Part shown: piece by piece, positions 17,748 through 49,555 of the stretch
Numbering within the stretch: the first letter of the stretch is position 1
Layout of the letters: each line of letters opens with the position of its first letter
From: Aquificota bacterium
GTDB taxonomy: Bacteria > Aquificota > Aquificia > Aquificales > Aquificaceae
Reading direction: 5' to 3'
DNA: 64,000 nt
Assembly: GCA_018771605.1 (NCBI GenBank)
Contig: CP076324.1
Location: forward strand, 124,001 to 188,000
Translations under genes and position numbers: made by a program
The notes under the pieces: generated by a model
Seen by the model: only the letters and a program-made list of their open reading frames with translations
Databases searched by the model: none
What the model was told of the DNA's origin: nothing

Positions 17748-18482
17748 CTATGCATGTCCACCCCTCACAAGCGCATACAAAGACCTACCCCAAACCAAGA
17801 GGGGAACTACAAGAAAGGTAAGAATGCCCCCAATCACATCAAAGACAAAGAACCAGTCTATCTGGTAAGTACCCGTCTCCGGGTTGTATCTAAAACACCT
17901 TAGCAAAAAGCCTTCTACGGGATTAAGGCTTACTTCCTCTTTCTTTGCCTCAAGCACAGCAAGTCTTAAGTCTCTAAGCTTAGGGCTTACACCGTATATG
18001 TACCTTGATATTTTCCCAGAGGGTGTGATAATCACGTAGAGGTTGGGATGTTCAAACTCTTTAAGCCTTTCATCGTACCTATACTTGTAGTCTATGGCTT
18101 TTAGAAGCTTATCCACCTCGTCGCTCCTTGCCACAAGCCAGTTGCTTGGAAGGTTATGGATTTCCTTAAACCTCTTAATGTCCAATAGGCTATCCCATGG
18201 GTCAAAGGTGATGGAAAGAACCCTCACATCCTCCTTAAGGCCTCTTATGACTTTCTTTAGTTCCTCCGTCATTACAGGACAGGCGGAGGAGCATTTGGCA
18301 TATATGGGGTTTACTATGAGCACCTTACCTTGGGCGAAGTCCTTTAGGCTGTAAACTTTTCCCTCATGGTCTTGAAGCCTTATATCGGGCACATAGGCGC
18401 CAATGGTCCTTTTCTCATCTGGCAAAAGGTTGGAGAAAGAGAAGGAAAGGAGTATAAAAAGGAGGCTAAAAAGCTTTACCAT
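17748..18482 (-). CDS. Sco1/SenC-type copper chaperone with C-terminal membrane anchor
   Basis: 244 aa with signal peptide (FSLLFILLSFSFSNLL) and a thioredoxin-like Sco domain: PDIRLQDHEGKVYSLKDF, then the CSSACP motif (C64, C68) that binds copper and the His of EHPNLYVII. A C-terminal hydrophobic segment (FVFDVIGGILTFLVVPLLVWG) anchors it. It probably delivers copper to the CuA subunit encoded four genes upstream. It overlaps the neighbouring membrane subunit gene by 17 bp, so it belongs to that operon. Confidence 0.9.
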   Translation of the reverse strand: MVKLFSLLFILLSFSFSNLLPDEKRTIGAYVPDIRLQDHEGKVYSLKDFAQGKVLIVNPIYAKCSSACPVMTEELKKVIRGLKEDVRVLSITFDPWDSLLDIKRFKEIHNLPSNWLVARSDEVDKLLKAIDYKYRYDERLKEFEHPNLYVIITPSGKISRYIYGVSPKLRDLRLAVLEAKKEEVSLNPVEGFLLRCFRYNPETGTYQIDWFFVFDVIGGILTFLVVPLLVWGRSLYALVRGGHA

Positions 18483-19728
18483 GTTTGTAAACCCTCATAA
18501 GAGATGTAAGGGAGTAAAAGAGGAAGAGTAGTCCGCCCGCCACCGCAAGCAAGCTTCCCATACCCATCACATTCAAAGCCATAAGCACCTCAGCCTTTTG
18601 CGCATACTCAAAGCCGTAGGTCTTTCTTGGTGCTCCCAATAGGCCTGCAATGTAAAAGCCGATTACCAAAAGGTTTATACCAAGGCCGAAAAGGGCAGGC
18701 TGAAGCTTGGCAAACCTCTCCCAGCTCACAAAACCAAGCCTTTCCTTTAGCATATAGTAGGTGAGCCCCATAAAGGCTATGGTTACCCCAGACACCACAC
18801 CATGATAATGGGCAGGTATTCTAAGGTCGCTCTGCATCCCACCGTAGGCTATAAATTCACCTACATAATACACACTCATGGAAAAGATCAAGGATAAGGT
18901 AGATACATCCTTGTTTATCCTCATATTCCTTAACACATAGAAGGTATGTATGAATACTGGCACACCTAAGCCTATTCCAAAGGATAGGGCTATAAGAAGC
19001 CTAAATCTATAGGAAAGCATGTCTGTAAGGTAGCCGTAAAAGAGGGTCAAGGAGAAAAGGAGCATAAAGAGGTTTGCTGAATTCATAATGGAGCTTGATA
19101 TTTGCACTCCTGAGTTTTTCTTCAAAAGCTCATGCCAAACGCATAGCATAAGGGCTGTGTACATAAACTGCTGAAGGTGTCCAGGTATCCAAAAGAGCCT
19201 TTCAAAGTAGAGCTTTCCTTCACCTTTTACAAGGAGCAAGGATAGAAGAAGGGACAGTACTGTCAAAAAGCCAAAGATAATGGATAAGGACAGCAGTTGT
19301 GTCTGCGTGTTTTGGATCAAAAGGCTTTTTATAGCTTCCCGTAGCCTAAGAAGTACCTCTGAAGAAAAACCCAAGAAGAAAAGAGTAAGGCCTGCGTAGA
19401 AGATGGGATTTTCTATAACTGGAATGTAATTGTTGAGCTGGGGTTGTCCATAGGGGAAAAGGCAGGAGAGGGAAAGGAAAAGCATACCAAGTAGGGTGGC
19501 TGGAGGTGCTACCTTCCCCTTCCTGCCTTCCTTATAGTGCCAAAAGGCCATGCCAAAGGTCATAAGCCATACTGTGATGGAAAAGGTTACATGGCCTACC
19601 AAAAAGTGGTAAAAGAGAAGGGGTGAATCAAGGAGTTTAAAGAGAGGAGCTCTTGTAAGAGCTATAAGAAGTCCAAAGATGCCAGCAAGAAGAAGCGAAA
19701 AGAGGGAAAGGGAGAGAAAGAAAAGCAT
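18466..19728 (-). CDS. Heme-copper oxidase subunit I-like membrane protein (second paralog)
   Basis: 420-aa polytopic protein from the ATG at 19728 (TAATG overlap with the upstream gene, SD GGGAGGTAAGG). By motif it is a shortened paralog of the 19728-21395 product: LVGHVTFSITVW (H46), IPGHLQQF (H184), PVFIHTF (H261) and RIPAHYHGVVSGVTIAFMGLTYYM (H307, H309). It keeps both His of the HxH heme pair, but the usual CuB His-His pair is Ile-His and no Tyr follows H184. It is probably part of the same complex as its paralog; its cofactor content is unknown. Confidence 0.72.
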   Translation of the reverse strand: MLFFLSLSLFSLLLAGIFGLLIALTRAPLFKLLDSPLLFYHFLVGHVTFSITVWLMTFGMAFWHYKEGRKGKVAPPATLLGMLFLSLSCLFPYGQPQLNNYIPVIENPIFYAGLTLFFLGFSSEVLLRLREAIKSLLIQNTQTQLLSLSIIFGFLTVLSLLLSLLLVKGEGKLYFERLFWIPGHLQQFMYTALMLCVWHELLKKNSGVQISSSIMNSANLFMLLFSLTLFYGYLTDMLSYRFRLLIALSFGIGLGVPVFIHTFYVLRNMRINKDVSTLSLIFSMSVYYVGEFIAYGGMQSDLRIPAHYHGVVSGVTIAFMGLTYYMLKERLGFVSWERFAKLQPALFGLGINLLVIGFYIAGLLGAPRKTYGFEYAQKAEVLMALNVMGMGSLLAVAGGLLFLFYSLTSLMRVYKHGKAF

Positions 19729-21395
19729 TACCTTACCTCCCACATAGCTGCGAGCCATCCCCAGTTGAGAAGTAGGAATATGAGGAAAACTCCCATAAAG
19801 AGTAGGGTAAGGGTGAGGGTTCCAGGTGCTTCAAAGCCATGCTCTTCCTTTGCCGGGGGTGGGGGTGAAGCTATCTGGAGTTGCATATCCTGAGGACCTC
19901 TCAAGGGAGCACCAAAGAAGACAGAGACGACTACTATAAGTATCCACATTAAAGCACCTATAACCGCCATTATGCCGCCGATGGCAAAAAGGACCCAGAA
20001 GAAGTCTGTAGCTGGGTTAAAGGTGTAGGTAAAAGGTCCGCCAGAGAAGGTAATATCGTAATGCCTCCTCGGAACACCAAAGGCTCCAAGTATATACATG
20101 GATACTGCCAATATGGCTATCCCTATGCCAAAGACCCAAGGCTGTAGCTTGGCAAGGCCAAAGAAGGAGATGCGCTTTCTAAACACAAGGGGTATCAGGT
20201 AGTAGGTGGCGCCCATAAAGGCTAAGGTAGTTCCACCCACCACAGTTCCCTTAAAATGTCCCGGTATGGAAAGGGTATTGTGGACTATTATGTTGGTCTG
20301 CTCCATACCGTTTACCACACCAGTAACACCACCTATAAAGCCAAAGATGATTATAGAAAGTAGCACTGCTGAGAAGGCTGGATTGCCCCAAGGGGCGTTC
20401 TTTAGCCAATCAAATAGGCCTTTTGTAAAGCCCCTTCTCCTCTGGGCTGATTCAACCGCAGATGGAACGGCAAAGGCATGTATCATAGAGGCAAGGACTG
20501 CTATGTACATGATGTAGCTTGTGTTAAAGACCTTCCAAGCAGGGCTTGGTCCTGGGTCAACCAATAGGTGGTGGGCAGAAGCCACGTTTATACCTATAAC
20601 GTAGAAAACAAAAGCAAACCTGCTAACCTTTTCATTGATAGAAGTGCCACCAACCGCAAGAAAAGCTCCAAGATACCACACAGCTATCATAGCCGTCACG
20701 TTTATCTGCTGTGAGGAGTGCCCAAGACCCCACCAGACTAACTTATAAACGCCAGCATCTATGCTTTTTATGATACCCAAAGACCAAAGGAGGGTTGGGA
20801 TGTAGATGATGGCACCTGTGGCAAGGGTAAGAGTAGCTATTATAGCAGCAGCCACAAGACCAAAGGTAAATAGTGGCAAGCTATCTCCGTAGGTCCTTTC
20901 CTTCCTTGCTATCAAAAGGTTGGCAAAGAAAAGAAAGACACCTATAAGAGCACCTACCGCAAAGAGGATAACACCAAGATAATAAAGGGGGTGGGCTTGC
21001 AAAGGAGCGTAAGAGGTCATCAAAACGTCTGCCTTCCCAGTCAGTATGGTGTAGTTAACAAGTAGAAAGCCAAGGACCATAAGGATAAAGGCAAGCCACC
21101 CAAACTTTGATGAGGACATTCGGGAGTTTAGCACTATGGTAGAACCAAAGTAAAGGCCTGCTATCTCAAAGAAAACTATCCAGAATATTAAAGCGTTGAG
21201 GCCATGAAGGGTAAGCACCCTATAGTACCAATCCACTGGCAGAAGGTGCACCACTTGCCACCTTGTAAGCACCAGAAGGAGGGCTCCGATAACACCTATA
21301 AGCAAAGAAACCACGGCCATGACGGCGTTAAGCTTAATAAGCTTTTCAGCGTTTAGATCCACCTTTAGACCTGTAATATCACACGTCCTAAACAT
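19728..21395 (-). CDS. Heme-copper-superfamily catalytic subunit, probable nitric oxide reductase
   Basis: 555 aa, about 13 membrane helices. Heme-copper motifs: HGLNALIFW (H64), GLGHSSQQ (H226), ASAHHLLVDPGP (H275, H276) and VHNTLSIPGHFKGTVVGG (H372, H380). At the position of the crosslinked Tyr of oxygen reductases (H+4 in HPEVY) stands Gln230, as expected for a NO reductase derived from oxygen reductases. The second His of HFH is Lys382. No NorB-type Glu set was recognised. Placement between nir and nos genes, with a CuA subunit and Sco, supports NO reduction in an alternative NOR family; the exact family is unresolved. Confidence 0.78.
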   Translation of the reverse strand: MFRTCDITGLKVDLNAEKLIKLNAVMAVVSLLIGVIGALLLVLTRWQVVHLLPVDWYYRVLTLHGLNALIFWIVFFEIAGLYFGSTIVLNSRMSSSKFGWLAFILMVLGFLLVNYTILTGKADVLMTSYAPLQAHPLYYLGVILFAVGALIGVFLFFANLLIARKERTYGDSLPLFTFGLVAAAIIATLTLATGAIIYIPTLLWSLGIIKSIDAGVYKLVWWGLGHSSQQINVTAMIAVWYLGAFLAVGGTSINEKVSRFAFVFYVIGINVASAHHLLVDPGPSPAWKVFNTSYIMYIAVLASMIHAFAVPSAVESAQRRRGFTKGLFDWLKNAPWGNPAFSAVLLSIIIFGFIGGVTGVVNGMEQTNIIVHNTLSIPGHFKGTVVGGTTLAFMGATYYLIPLVFRKRISFFGLAKLQPWVFGIGIAILAVSMYILGAFGVPRRHYDITFSGGPFTYTFNPATDFFWVLFAIGGIMAVIGALMWILIVVVSVFFGAPLRGPQDMQLQIASPPPPAKEEHGFEAPGTLTLTLLFMGVFLIFLLLNWGWLAAMWEVR

Positions 21396-21406: not shown

Positions 21407-21937
21407 TCATTCTTTGACTATGATCTTTCCTATCATCATGTGATGCCCTATACCGCAGAATTCGTTGCATACTATGGCAAACTCTCCAGCGGAGGTTGGC
21501 TTAAAGGTAAGCACATAGTCGTAGCCTGGGAAAACCATAAAGTTCATGTTTACAGGCTGTAAGGAAAAACCGTGTAAGAGGTCCAAAGAAGATATGTGAA
21601 ACCTGTACTCTTGGCCCTTTTTAAGCACCAAAACGGGCTCCCATCTCCACATCTTGGCCACGAGGAAAACATCGCTGTTGGGCGGAGGTTCAACCACAGG
21701 TATTCCGTTCATTTCACCGGTTTTATACTTCTCCATAAAGGCAGTGGCTAAAGCGTTAAACTCCTGGGGAGTTGTGCGGTATGTGGTAAAGGAGGGGTTT
21801 TGCTTTCCGTATATGTGCCAGACAACCATCCAGAAGAATAGGATAAGGCACACCACCAGGGCAAGGGCTATCCACATCTTCTCATCCTTTGCCACCTTCT
21901 TAAAGTACCATCCTTCTTCGGGTGGTAATAGAGCCAT
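21407..21937 (-). CDS. CuA-containing subunit II of the heme-copper complex
   Basis: 176 aa: short N-terminal tail, one membrane helix (WIALALVVCLILFFWMVVWHIYG), then a periplasmic cupredoxin domain. The CuA site is complete: upstream His in LLHGFSLQP and C157-x-E159-x-C161-x3-H165-x2-M168 in CNEFCGIGHHMM. It accepts electrons from cytochrome c and passes them to subunit I. It precedes the catalytic subunit gene by 11 bp and follows a 58-residue membrane protein gene by one base. Confidence 0.9.
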   Translation of the reverse strand: MALLPPEEGWYFKKVAKDEKMWIALALVVCLILFFWMVVWHIYGKQNPSFTTYRTTPQEFNALATAFMEKYKTGEMNGIPVVEPPPNSDVFLVAKMWRWEPVLVLKKGQEYRFHISSLDLLHGFSLQPVNMNFMVFPGYDYVLTFKPTSAGEFAIVCNEFCGIGHHMMIGKIIVKE

Positions 21938-21938
21938 G

Positions 21939-22115
21939 TCACTTACCTCCTATAAGAGACTGTTTTAGTTCTGAGGGTATTGGAGATAGCCAAGCGAGTT
22001 CTATGAGCCCCCAGATTAGATAGAACACAGCATAGATAGTTACACCCAAGAAAAGAAGAAGCATAAAATCGTCCAAGATCAACTGAAGGAATGGTGTTTT
22101 CTTTTTCTCCTCCAT
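21939..22115 (-). CDS. Small one-helix membrane subunit of the heme-copper complex
   Basis: 58-aa reading frame from ATG 22115 to TGA 21939 with AGGAGGTGATAAC just upstream. The product starts MEEKKKTPFLQLILDDFMLL and has one hydrophobic helix (MLLLFLGVTIYAVFYLIWGL) followed by a short polar tail. Its stop lies one base before the CuA-subunit ATG. Tiny helical subunits at the head of cytochrome oxidase or NOR operons are common, so a structural subunit is the best guess; there is no sequence motif. Confidence 0.7.
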   Translation of the reverse strand: MEEKKKTPFLQLILDDFMLLLFLGVTIYAVFYLIWGLIELAWLSPIPSELKQSLIGGK

Positions 22116-22281: not shown

Positions 22282-24219
22282 ATGGAAGTGATAGGCATAC
22301 AGCCCCTTTACATAGCCTTTCAAAGACTTTCTTATACTTTCAGCAGGTTATTCTCTTCCAGGCTAAACCCCCTTTACCACCTTGGAGCCATAGCCATATT
22401 CTTACTAGTCATAGATGCAATCTCTGGCGTTTATCTCTTTTTCTTCTACAGCATAGACCCAAAGGCATCCCATGCATCTGTTGAGGCCATATCACAAAGC
22501 CTTCTTGGAAACATAATGAGAGGCATACACAGATACTCCTCTGATGCCCTTATCCTTACCACCATAGCCCACATGTTGCATGTGATCATAACAGACAGAT
22601 TTAGGATGTTCAGATGGGTAGCTTGGGTAACAGGCATTGCAACTTTGCTTATCTTCTTAGCCATAGGTATATCTGGTTATATCCTGGTTTGGGATACAAA
22701 GGCACAGCTCCTTGGTATATTAACCGCCAAGTTCTTTTCCTTCCTACCCATTTTTGGTGATGTTCTTATGAGTGCTTTCTTAGGTAGCGATATAAAGTAT
22801 TTGGGAGGACTTTTTAGAATACTCCTCTTTGCCCATATAGCCCTTACCATACTCATAGTATTTACTCTTTGGGTTCATGTGATGAGGAATGCAAGGCCAA
22901 GGCTCATACCTCCCAAGTTTCTTTACATAAGCATAACATTGCTTCTTATAGCCCTCTCCATACTTTTTCCTGCAAAGAGCGACCCACCAGCCAACATAGA
23001 AAAGCTTCCCTTTGAGATGAGCCTTGACTGGTTTTATTTCTTTGGCTATCCACTACTTAAATACCTTCCCATGTCTGCCAACTGGGTCCTCTTCTTAGGG
23101 TTTTTCACCTTCCTTTTTGTTTTCCCATGGCTCATAAAGGGGAGGAGAAACCCACCAGCCCATATAGATTTTGAAAGATGCACTGGATGCGAGCAGTGTT
23201 ATATTGACTGCCCTTATGAGGCCATAACCATGAGAAGCTTTGACAATGATAAAAAGGCTGTTTTGAATGAAGAAAAATGCGCTGGCTGTGGTATATGCGT
23301 GGGGTCCTGTAGTTCAAAGGCAATAGATATATCAACCTTTCCAGTGCAAAGTATAAAAGAAAGGATAGAAAAGGAAAGGCCTTCTTATGTAGCCTTTAGA
23401 TGTCCATTTAGCGCTCAAATACCCGAAAGGAAAGATCTTCTCTCCTTTACAGTACCTTGTATAGGTGCAATAAATACCCTCTATGCGGAGGAGCTTCTTG
23501 ATATGGGCTTGGAGGGTCTTATCTTGGTTTCCTGTGAGTATGAGGATTGCTACTTTAGGGAAGGTAACAAGTGGCTGGAGGCAAGGTATAGGAGGGAAAG
23601 AAGGCCCATCTTGAGGAAAAGGGTGTTGGGAGGAAAGGTGCTTATACTGGAGGCACCTTATGTAAAACCCATTGAAAAGGAAGTGGATGAGTTTATGAGG
23701 GAAAATAAAACTGGCAAAGAGCCAAGGATTATAGCCTTAGAAAAGATAAACTACGCAGTGGCTACACTCATCCTTGCCATACCAACCTTCCTTTTTTATC
23801 CTTTAACTACCCATAAGATATCCTTTTATCCCACTCACAAGTCTGCAGTGGTTCTAAACTTTAAGTATAGGTCTTCTCCTGTTAGGGAGGCTGTGGCTAA
23901 AAAAGAAGGTCTAAAGCATATGCAACCCCAGATGGCTATAGTAAAAGAGAGGTCTCCTGTTAAGGTGGAGATAATCTCAGAAGGAAGGACGATTTACTCA
24001 AAGACCTTCTATCCAAGGGGCCTAAGGAAGGATGCTTCACTTTTTGTCTATGAGGAGATCTTTTTAAAACCCGAAGGGAAAAGGCTAAGGCTAAGGTTGG
24101 AAGAGACGGCCCATAAGGATAAGGTGAAAGAGATTGAGTTTGATATACCCCAAAAACCAAAGGAGAGCGTGCTCATAACTTACGATGATGCTACTGGTAG
24201 CTTTGTGGTTCTAAGGTGA
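22282..24219 (+). CDS. Cytochrome b / diferredoxin / MvhD fusion protein
   Basis: 645-aa fusion. Residues 1-285 are a cytochrome b of the b6/bc type with paired heme ligands H83/H97 and H185/H199, and a degenerate PEWY motif (LDWFYF, 248-253). Residues 286-350 hold two 4Fe-4S motifs (C300-C303-C306-C310; C333-C336-C339-C343). Residues 365-445 resemble MvhD/HdrA-type delta subunits, with C374, C393, C418 and C423. A helix at 491-508 is followed by a ~135-residue, probably periplasmic, domain. Divergent from the NOR-like operon and convergent with the last nos gene, it likely links quinol or a cytoplasmic reductant to periplasmic cytochromes c; role inferred. Confidence 0.8.
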   Translation: MEVIGIQPLYIAFQRLSYTFSRLFSSRLNPLYHLGAIAIFLLVIDAISGVYLFFFYSIDPKASHASVEAISQSLLGNIMRGIHRYSSDALILTTIAHMLHVIITDRFRMFRWVAWVTGIATLLIFLAIGISGYILVWDTKAQLLGILTAKFFSFLPIFGDVLMSAFLGSDIKYLGGLFRILLFAHIALTILIVFTLWVHVMRNARPRLIPPKFLYISITLLLIALSILFPAKSDPPANIEKLPFEMSLDWFYFFGYPLLKYLPMSANWVLFLGFFTFLFVFPWLIKGRRNPPAHIDFERCTGCEQCYIDCPYEAITMRSFDNDKKAVLNEEKCAGCGICVGSCSSKAIDISTFPVQSIKERIEKERPSYVAFRCPFSAQIPERKDLLSFTVPCIGAINTLYAEELLDMGLEGLILVSCEYEDCYFREGNKWLEARYRRERRPILRKRVLGGKVLILEAPYVKPIEKEVDEFMRENKTGKEPRIIALEKINYAVATLILAIPTFLFYPLTTHKISFYPTHKSAVVLNFKYRSSPVREAVAKKEGLKHMQPQMAIVKERSPVKVEIISEGRTIYSKTFYPRGLRKDASLFVYEEIFLKPEGKRLRLRLEETAHKDKVKEIEFDIPQKPKESVLITYDDATGSFVVLR

Positions 24220-47761: not shown

Positions 47762-48731
47762 AACTGTAAAGGACCACTCTGTTATTTCCAGTATCTGCTA
47801 TAAGCAGAAGATCCTCCGTAGAAAAAACAGCATAAGGCCAACATAGAGTGTCTTTATAAACTCCTTCCCAACGATTCTCTCCACACTTGGAAAAATCTTT
47901 TTGCCCTAAAACAGCTACAGGCTCCCGTTCTTCAAAGATAAGTACCCTGTTGTTTGATGTGTCCGCAACAAAAAGTAAGCGATGGTTTGCACTTACGCCA
48001 TAAGGCAGGTTTAAATTGAACCGTCCACATCCCTCTCCACGACCCAAGTAAAAGTCAGCCTGCTGTGCACACCTGAGTGAGTTCCTAAAGGCATAAACTT
48101 TGCTTACTCCTGTACCCGCATCTGCCACAAAGAAGTATTCATCCTTTTTGCAGATAGCATGTGGCCAGCCAAAGCCTTCGTACACCTCATCTGGTTTTTG
48201 CATACTGTCTGGTATACCTTTCCATTTAAGGATACGCCTGTTGCCCGTATCGCAAACATAAAGATCATCCCCATGATAATAAACGCCAAAGCACCAAAAG
48301 AACAGATTTCTATCTACCTGTTTAAGATTAGGTTGGCCTATTACATGGTCAGGTTTTGAAAAACTCTCTTCAGGCACCCTATCCCATAGGAGTATCCTAT
48401 GGTTCCACGCATCCGCCACAAAAAGTTTACCTTCATCTGATACAAACACACCGGTAGGCAGGAAAAGCCCCCTCTCCGTATCGCCACCTGCATTTGGATG
48501 GTCAGAGTAAAAGTCCATCTGACCGAGCACCACATCCGCTGGCTGGTTCTGTTTTGGCAGATCCTTCCATATTAACACCCTATGATTACCCGTATCCGCA
48601 ACTATTAAAGTATTATCCTTTAGAAACACACCCCTAGGACCGTAAAGAGTGTAAGGAGATGCTTTAGCGTCTGGTACTTGCAGACTAAACTCAGAACTTG
48701 CACCTATAGCGCTTAAAAACTCCACCTTCAT
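47751..48731 (-). CDS. NHL-repeat beta-propeller protein of the hydrogenase operon
   Basis: 326 aa from ATG 48731 (ATGA overlap with the upstream stop). At least five NHL repeats: GPRGVFLKDNTLIVADTGNHRVLIW, LPTGVFVSDEGKLFVADAWNHRI, CFGVYYHGDDLYVCDTGNRRI, LPYGVSANHRLLFVADTSNNRV and WPYAVFSTEDLLLIADTGNNRV. No signal peptide, so cytoplasmic. NHL proteins occur in gene clusters of group 2a [NiFe] hydrogenases; their role there is not established. Confidence 0.85.
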   Translation of the reverse strand: MKVEFLSAIGASSEFSLQVPDAKASPYTLYGPRGVFLKDNTLIVADTGNHRVLIWKDLPKQNQPADVVLGQMDFYSDHPNAGGDTERGLFLPTGVFVSDEGKLFVADAWNHRILLWDRVPEESFSKPDHVIGQPNLKQVDRNLFFWCFGVYYHGDDLYVCDTGNRRILKWKGIPDSMQKPDEVYEGFGWPHAICKKDEYFFVADAGTGVSKVYAFRNSLRCAQQADFYLGRGEGCGRFNLNLPYGVSANHRLLFVADTSNNRVLIFEEREPVAVLGQKDFSKCGENRWEGVYKDTLCWPYAVFSTEDLLLIADTGNNRVVLYSFNA

Positions 48732-49555
48732 TCTACCTTTAGCCACACATATCCATTTTCTATCCTCGTATGCACAGGAACCAACTGTACATAGTTGGCA
48801 GTAAGACACTCACCCGAAGTTATACTGTACTCGAAGTTATGCCAAGGGCATATTAAAATACCCTCTTTTGTAAGCTCTCCATCGTGAAGTGGAAGACCCT
48901 GGTGTGCACAGGAGTTTCTGTAAGCATAAAGTTTCCCTTCCCAGAGTACTAATATCACATCAGCCTTTTCGTGCAAGAACCTGTACACACGACCCTCTAT
49001 TAGCTCGCTAACATTAAAGGCTTTCACATAACCTTCTTTTTTTTGAGAAAATTCAATAAAGGCTTCTACGGGAGTGTCCTTTGCAAGCTCCACCCTCTCA
49101 ATGCTTGGAACAAAAGACTGAACCGCCTCAAGTATGGTCTGTTGGAGTGTAAAAGAAACCTGTGAACAGCCGGTGCATGCTCCTTTTAGCCTTACATAAA
49201 GCGTTTTCTCCTTAAGGTCAACGAACTCCACATCCCCACCGTGAGACCTTATGTAAGGTTTTATAAGCTCAAGAGCTTTGATAGCTTTAGTCCTGTCATC
49301 TTCTCTGATTAAACCGTGCTTTAGGAAAAGGCTATAGACCTCTGGCTCTTTCACAGCTTTTAATAGTAGCTCCTTACCTATAGGCTCCTCCTTCATAAGC
49401 CTGACAAGTTTAACTAAGGCTATTTTTGTGAACTCCTCAATGCTCTTTACGAGTTCCCCTACGATCTCTCTTTTTTCATCTTCAAACTCTCTAACCTTTT
49501 TAAGAAGTTCGTCTATCCTCTCTGCCAGTTTTTCAAAGCTAAGTTCTTCCGTCAT
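48728..49555 (-). CDS. NifU-domain / Rieske ferredoxin fusion
   Basis: 275 aa. After an N-terminal coiled-coil-like region (FEKLAERIDELLKKVREFED), a NifU C-terminal domain appears: ALELIKPYIRSHGGDVEFVD and GACTGCSQVSFTLQQTI, with the CxxC. The C-terminal ~100 residues are Rieske-type: CAHQGLPLHDGELT and CPWHNFEYSITSGEC, giving C-x-H and C-x2-H ligands. Such proteins are found beside group 2a hydrogenases and may serve in FeS assembly or electron transfer from the enzyme. It overlaps NHL and TPR genes. Confidence 0.85.
   Translation of the reverse strand: MTEELSFEKLAERIDELLKKVREFEDEKREIVGELVKSIEEFTKIALVKLVRLMKEEPIGKELLLKAVKEPEVYSLFLKHGLIREDDRTKAIKALELIKPYIRSHGGDVEFVDLKEKTLYVRLKGACTGCSQVSFTLQQTILEAVQSFVPSIERVELAKDTPVEAFIEFSQKKEGYVKAFNVSELIEGRVYRFLHEKADVILVLWEGKLYAYRNSCAHQGLPLHDGELTKEGILICPWHNFEYSITSGECLTANYVQLVPVHTRIENGYVWLKVE

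Follow-up and report, generated by a model that had tools for sequence, protein, structure and literature searches.

What does a gene do that joins a cytochrome b, two [4Fe-4S] motifs, an MvhD domain and a membrane-anchored tail, and that lies beside a predicted eNOR? eNOR produces the greenhouse gas N2O and is suspected to conserve energy, and its accessory genes have been little studied. We addressed this question in a 64,000-nucleotide stretch of an Aquificota genome (hereafter, the window), where the fusion belongs to a denitrification island with NirS and d1-heme genes beyond eNOR and nos genes on the other side (Table 1). An earlier note on this DNA had proposed that the fusion routes low-potential electrons from the cytoplasm into the membrane for NO or N2O reduction.

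Table 1. Features of the fusion gene and of the adjoining eNOR cluster (window coordinates)
Feature	Position	Strand	Basis
Cytochrome b - 2x[4Fe-4S] - MvhD - TM - predicted periplasmic tail fusion, 645 aa	22282..24219	+	Pfam, NCBIfam, alignment of relatives
Cytochrome b helices A-D, residues 21-202, ligands H83/H97/H185/H199	22342..22887	+	Pfam PF00033; invariant in 13 relatives
Helices E-F, residues 203-287, degenerate PEWY (LDWF, Asp249 invariant)	22888..23142	+	phmmer alignment with bc1 cytochrome b
Two [4Fe-4S] ferredoxin motifs, predicted cytoplasmic, residues 293-348	23158..23325	+	Pfam; 8 invariant Cys
MvhD/FlpD domain (by profile), residues 366-462, C374/C393/C418/C423	23377..23667	+	Pfam; profile search of the PDB
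Seventh transmembrane helix, residues about 488-507	23743..23802	+	Hydropathy; AlphaFold2 helix 491-504
Predicted periplasmic beta-sandwich tail, residues 508-645	23803..24216	+	AlphaFold2 pLDDT 80.5
Predicted eNOR subunit I, Gln230 at the position of ba3 active-site Tyr237	19728..21395	-	Alignment with ba3 and homologues
Predicted eNOR subunit II (cupredoxin; CuA ligands in CNEFCGIGHHMM)	21407..21937	-	Pfam, NCBIfam
Candidate small subunit: 58-aa ORF with one TM helix, upstream of eNOR subunit II	21939..22115	-	
Second COX1-like protein without CuB His-His pair	18466..19758	-	
SCO1/SenC protein, eNOR cluster	17748..18482	-	Pfam

Domain architecture and predicted topology of the fusion

The fusion ORF is intact and a good ribosome-binding site precedes its start. 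HMM searches confirmed the cytochrome b, the two [4Fe-4S] motifs and the MvhD/FlpD domain described in the earlier note: Pfam matched Cytochrome_B over residues 21-200 (E 1.4e-15), Fer4 dicluster models over residues 293-348 (E 1e-8 to 1e-10) and FlpD/MvhD over residues 388-438 (26.8 bits, gathering cut-off 22.3), and with NCBIfam residues 293-440 aligned at 66 bits to the C-terminal Fer4-MvhD part of HdrA2. PF00033 was matched by 13/13 relatives, and the four heme-b His and eight ferredoxin Cys that had been pointed out proved invariant across these 13 divergent proteins. The b6-type spacing assigned to the His residues did not hold, as the distance between H185 and H199 is 14, i.e. the bc1 value, versus 15 in cytochrome b6 (phmmer alignment); the position of the b6 heme-cn Cys is His/Tyr33 in the fusion family. 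The alignment with bc1 cytochrome b (phmmer) continues through helices E and F up to residue 289. The PEWY equivalent (LDWFYF) is indeed degenerate, with Pro and Tyr lost, but the doubt cast on the Qo site for that reason was too strong, since the acidic residue is kept as Asp249 in 13/13 relatives and the cd loop has an invariant W-D. Ordinary Q-cycle chemistry is better argued against by the cluster having no Rieske gene.

The four-Cys region had been called MvhD-like, and on profile evidence this assignment is firm. When a profile of the region from eight relatives was searched against the PDB, MvhD-type chains were the sole significant matches (best E 1.3e-10), no other family being significant, and FlpD was matched by 8/8 of its members. 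Cys 374, 393 and 418 are invariant in the 13 divergent relatives; C423 is present in the window protein and missing in the main Bacteroidota branch. In three proteins (L075, L077 and L080), an inserted segment brings another Cys where the fourth one is lost, which suggests that a cluster ligand may have moved within the domain.

By cytochrome b homology and hydropathy, the N-terminus is predicted on the n side and six helices are predicted to place the ferredoxin and MvhD domains in the cytoplasm; the seventh would leave the C-terminal 138 residues on the periplasmic side. Both this further helix and the periplasmic tail had been anticipated, and hydropathy and AlphaFold2 agree with them, the tail modelled in isolation being a well-folded beta-sandwich. 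The full-length model was modest (mean pLDDT 65.6), its membrane part being weak and heme-to-cluster distances not readable; its best Foldseek matches were cytochrome b chains. We rejected the tail as FixG_C or another named domain, since Pfam gave no match over cut-off, FixG_C included, and structural matches were generic beta-sandwiches only. A copper site was likewise rejected: the tail has no invariant His/Cys pair for copper, a single Met alone is common to the relatives, and the HM motif varies (QM in L041, NM in Defluviimonas). Helix plus tail form a downstream gene of their own in L074, L079 and L101 (the Defluviimonas plasmid), so that the tail can be detached as a module. In all relatives the cytochrome b, the ferredoxin motifs and MvhD remain joined; the earlier note would have counted their occurrence as separate unrelated genes in homologs against its reading.

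Full-length relatives occur in Aquificaceae (53-98 % identity) and in the phylum Bacteroidota (27-36 %), and a shorter one on the Defluviimonas plasmid (Alphaproteobacteria, 31 %). Recurring in many genomes at 27-98 % identity, the fusion is no assembly artefact. The sole annotated record examined names it 'cytochrome b N-terminal domain-containing protein'. L033, a contig whose genes are 94-100 % identical to those of the window's denitrification island, is found in a 'Candidatus Bathyarchaeota' MAG, where it was probably placed by a binning error.

The eNOR neighbour and its linkage to the fusion

The divergent neighbour of the fusion is a B-family-like heme-copper enzyme whose nearest PDB relative is Thermus ba3. 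Gln replaces the active-site Tyr in the window protein and in all aligned homologues save the ba3 reference, and all CuA ligands are kept in subunit II. Gln at this position and a cupredoxin subunit II are the published criteria for eNOR (PMC8756737), by which the neighbour is classified as eNOR with a predicted NO reductase activity.

Several other features of these clusters were observed. The 58-aa ORF (21939-22115), whose position is occupied by small ORFs in L101-L104 as well, is likely an overlooked small subunit. The second COX1-like protein (18466-19758) retains heme-type His residues and lacks the CuB His-His pair; such a protein is also encoded upstream of subunit II in five Bacteroidota eNOR loci (L075-L079). 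Residue 382 of eNOR (ba3 His386, a low-spin heme ligand) is Lys in Aquificota, G061, G428 and Thermus (GHFK) and stays His in other eNORs, Lys382 being a possible unusual heme ligand. In several of the loci L075-L079 and L082-L084, a protein of 144-150 aa with an Rrf2-like start (NsrR-like, by eye) is encoded near the eNOR-fusion genes, and Thermus eNOR loci contain an annotated Rrf2 gene; the Rrf2-like genes suggest a possible NO-responsive control. No FNR-like box was found in the divergent promoter between the fusion and eNOR.

Distribution was surveyed in 61 genomes of the Aquificota order (fusion above 780 bits, close eNOR above 930 bits) and in 395 genomes of the phylum Bacteroidota (eNOR above 680 bits in fusion genomes). 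In the former, the fusion and the close eNOR are confined to the identical eight genomes (Fisher p 3e-10, kinship uncorrected). In the latter, 9/9 fusion genomes carry an adjoining eNOR (Fisher p 1.7e-18, kinship uncorrected), both values overstating independence because the genomes are related by descent. Seven more Bacteroidota genomes have an eNOR at 480-520 bits and no fusion. The linkage recurs in a third phylum, on the Defluviimonas plasmid. On the eNOR tree, which has long branches, the fusion state would have changed two to three times, and the fusion may have arisen once or more often.

Gene order is HCO2-HCO1-SCO-fusion in Bacteroidota and HCO2-HCO1-CyoE-SCO-fusion on the Defluviimonas plasmid, and in Aquificota the fusion is divergent from HCO2. 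SCO is present in 14/14 fusion loci but in 0/10 eNOR loci without the fusion (those of Thermus, Thermomicrobium and a Rhodothermus-like group), and the SCO and fusion genes overlap or abut in L041, L074, L080 and L101. CcoG is found alongside the fusion in six of the nine Bacteroidota fusion genomes.

That the fusion is a membrane-anchored electron source for N2O reduction would fit the nosZ cluster that adjoins the fusion in the window and in near relatives, as well as the presence of nosZ over cut-off in 13/17 fusion genomes of the two samples, G428 having it as two pieces and G026 in a divergent form. Against this, G018 and G033 (99 % complete) carry the fusion and no nosZ, and of the 14 Aquificota-sample genomes with nosZ over cut-off, five have the fusion and nine do not. 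Moreover, 16/16 Bacteroidota eNOR genomes carry nosZ, fusion or not (15 over cut-off, the other being G428), and there nosZ lies outside the fusion operon, gene order tying the fusion to eNOR. Co-occurrence and gene order thus rule out nosZ as the partner, and the fusion-nosZ link is indirect; we regard this function, largely refuted by gene linkage, as very improbable. The earlier note proposed to check whether the fusion tracks clade II nosZ across genomes; it tracks eNOR instead. From the electron route proposed there, the NO half is retained, in line with the domains and the strict eNOR linkage, and the N2O half is abandoned.

Proposed role and competing explanations

We consider the chances somewhat better than even that the fusion serves eNOR as a dedicated conduit for electrons across the membrane, leading from a cytoplasmic donor to the periplasmic face. 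The invariant ligands mark out such a path, from the cytoplasm up to the heme on the periplasmic side. A low-potential donor would reduce the [2Fe-2S] cluster of MvhD and then the two [4Fe-4S] clusters, electrons would pass the membrane via heme bH and then heme bL, and they would be consumed at the periplasmic face. This n-to-p direction, the donor and the acceptor are what we infer. As a precedent, MvhD connects a cytoplasmic enzyme to the membrane in Sporomusa (PMC9430772). Against the conduit, the conserved fusion-eNOR cluster contains no gene for a donor, whether HdrA-like or another flavoprotein.

The exclusive pairing with eNOR and SCO, together with SCO and fusion genes that overlap or touch in several loci, suggests that the conduit would serve either maturation or electron supply. 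In maturation, the fusion would give reductive help to SCO and copper in CuA/CuB assembly of eNOR, a job resembling that of CcoG or CrpH, built from different parts. CcoG is a transmembrane reductase supporting a heme-copper enzyme (PMC8267372), and CrpH supports heme-copper enzymes, copper reduction being a speculation of its authors (PMC13038864). These precedents, the SCO correlation and the lack of the fusion-SCO pair in other eNORs favour this endpoint. In electron supply, the recipient would be a quinone bound in the Qo-like pocket or, alternatively, the chain that reduces NO; this endpoint is favoured by the retained Qo-like features and by the MvhD module, known relatives of which connect catabolic complexes, as in Sporomusa. 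The two endpoints, each taking about half of the confidence placed in the conduit, are rated nearly equal, the sequence not deciding between them. The fusion is no simple replacement of CcoG, since CcoG coexists with it in most of the Bacteroidota fusion genomes, and it is not needed for eNOR catalysis itself, since other eNORs, the probable one of R. marinus among them, share the active site and the CuA but have no fusion.

The strict linkage could also mean that the fusion is a structural or electron-transfer subunit inside the eNOR complex, which would make a ferredoxin- or Hdr-linked NO reductase, the known partners of MvhD being cytoplasmic redox complexes. We find this unlikely, because CuA is kept in all cases and subunit II of L041 adds a cytochrome c domain (CxxCH), both pointing to cytochrome c as donor, and because sister eNORs do without the fusion. 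Less probable again is the reverse direction, in which the fusion is a bifurcating quinol oxidase: menaquinol would be oxidised in the p-side pocket and its two electrons would part, one entering the NO chain at a carrier of high potential, the other travelling via bL, bH and the clusters until it reaches an acceptor in the cytoplasm, for instance ferredoxin. The invariance of Asp249 and of the cd-loop W-D is compatible with such chemistry, and bifurcation has been proposed for the Rieske/cytochrome b complexes of anammox, which include an NAD(P) reductase on the cytoplasmic side (PMC12954380). However, the Pro and Tyr of PEWY are gone, and no Rieske gene was found in any fusion cluster (clusters of relatives being compared by BLAST with window genes and by eye), nor is one annotated in that of the Defluviimonas plasmid. 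Rieske matches in the genome of the window itself occur only beside ordinary cytochrome b and in a ferredoxin next to hydrogenase. The latter (48728-49555, - strand), considered as the missing partner, was rejected, as it combines NifU and Rieske ferredoxin domains in one protein and adjoins [NiFe]-hydrogenase genes.

A further reading can be put forward only tentatively and with clearly less confidence than the conduit, namely that the fusion represents a hitherto unnamed class of cytochrome b coupling a cytoplasmic ferredoxin/Hdr-type pool across the membrane to eNOR. NO reduction or its quinone pool would then draw low-potential electrons or, by bifurcation, supply them.

Significance and comparison with known systems

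The fusion splits eNOR loci into two kinds, i.e. with and without the fusion-SCO pair, and it both serves as a marker gene and offers an accessory function of eNOR that can be tested. Rhodothermus marinus is reportedly the species of the biochemically characterised eNOR; one of the Rhodothermus-like loci (G071) is probably that of R. marinus R-10 and falls in the kind without the pair. The biochemical characterisation of eNOR is cited in PMC11388526. No description of the fusion architecture was found in the open literature, a search that did not extend to the main eNOR paper, in which a mention in an operon figure is possible. The parts of the fusion are known; their combination and the exclusive eNOR partner appear to be new.

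With cytochrome b of bc1/b6f complexes, the fusion shares helices A-F, the four heme ligands, the bc1-type helix-D spacing and an Asp at the position of the PEWY Glu. It differs in having no helix G, Rieske protein or b6 heme-cn Cys, in the otherwise lost PEWY, and in carrying Fe-S domains in place of the cytochrome b C-terminus. The anammox complexes, too, combine a cytochrome b with electron transfer by Fe-S centres in the cytoplasm, but through separate subunits, with Rieske, multiheme c cytochromes and another cytoplasmic module. Like CcoG/RdxA/FixG, the cupric reductase of cbb3, the fusion is a membrane protein with two ferredoxin motifs and a link to heme-copper assembly, whereas it adds two b hemes and MvhD and uses another scaffold. 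Orthology to CcoG was rejected, no TIGR02745 match being obtained in G000 at 1e-5 and the tail having no FixG_C. CrpH is similarly a heme-dependent membrane protein backing heme-copper enzymes, but it belongs to the PepSY_TM family and Fe-S domains are not reported for it. Finally, the module order and Cys pattern are those of the HdrA2 C-terminus (Fer4-Fer4-MvhD) and of stand-alone MvhD, although the module is borne by a membrane cytochrome b and not by a flavoprotein, and the fourth MvhD Cys is lost in the Bacteroidota branch. The fusion thereby shows an HdrA2-type Fe-S/MvhD module transferred onto a cytochrome b.
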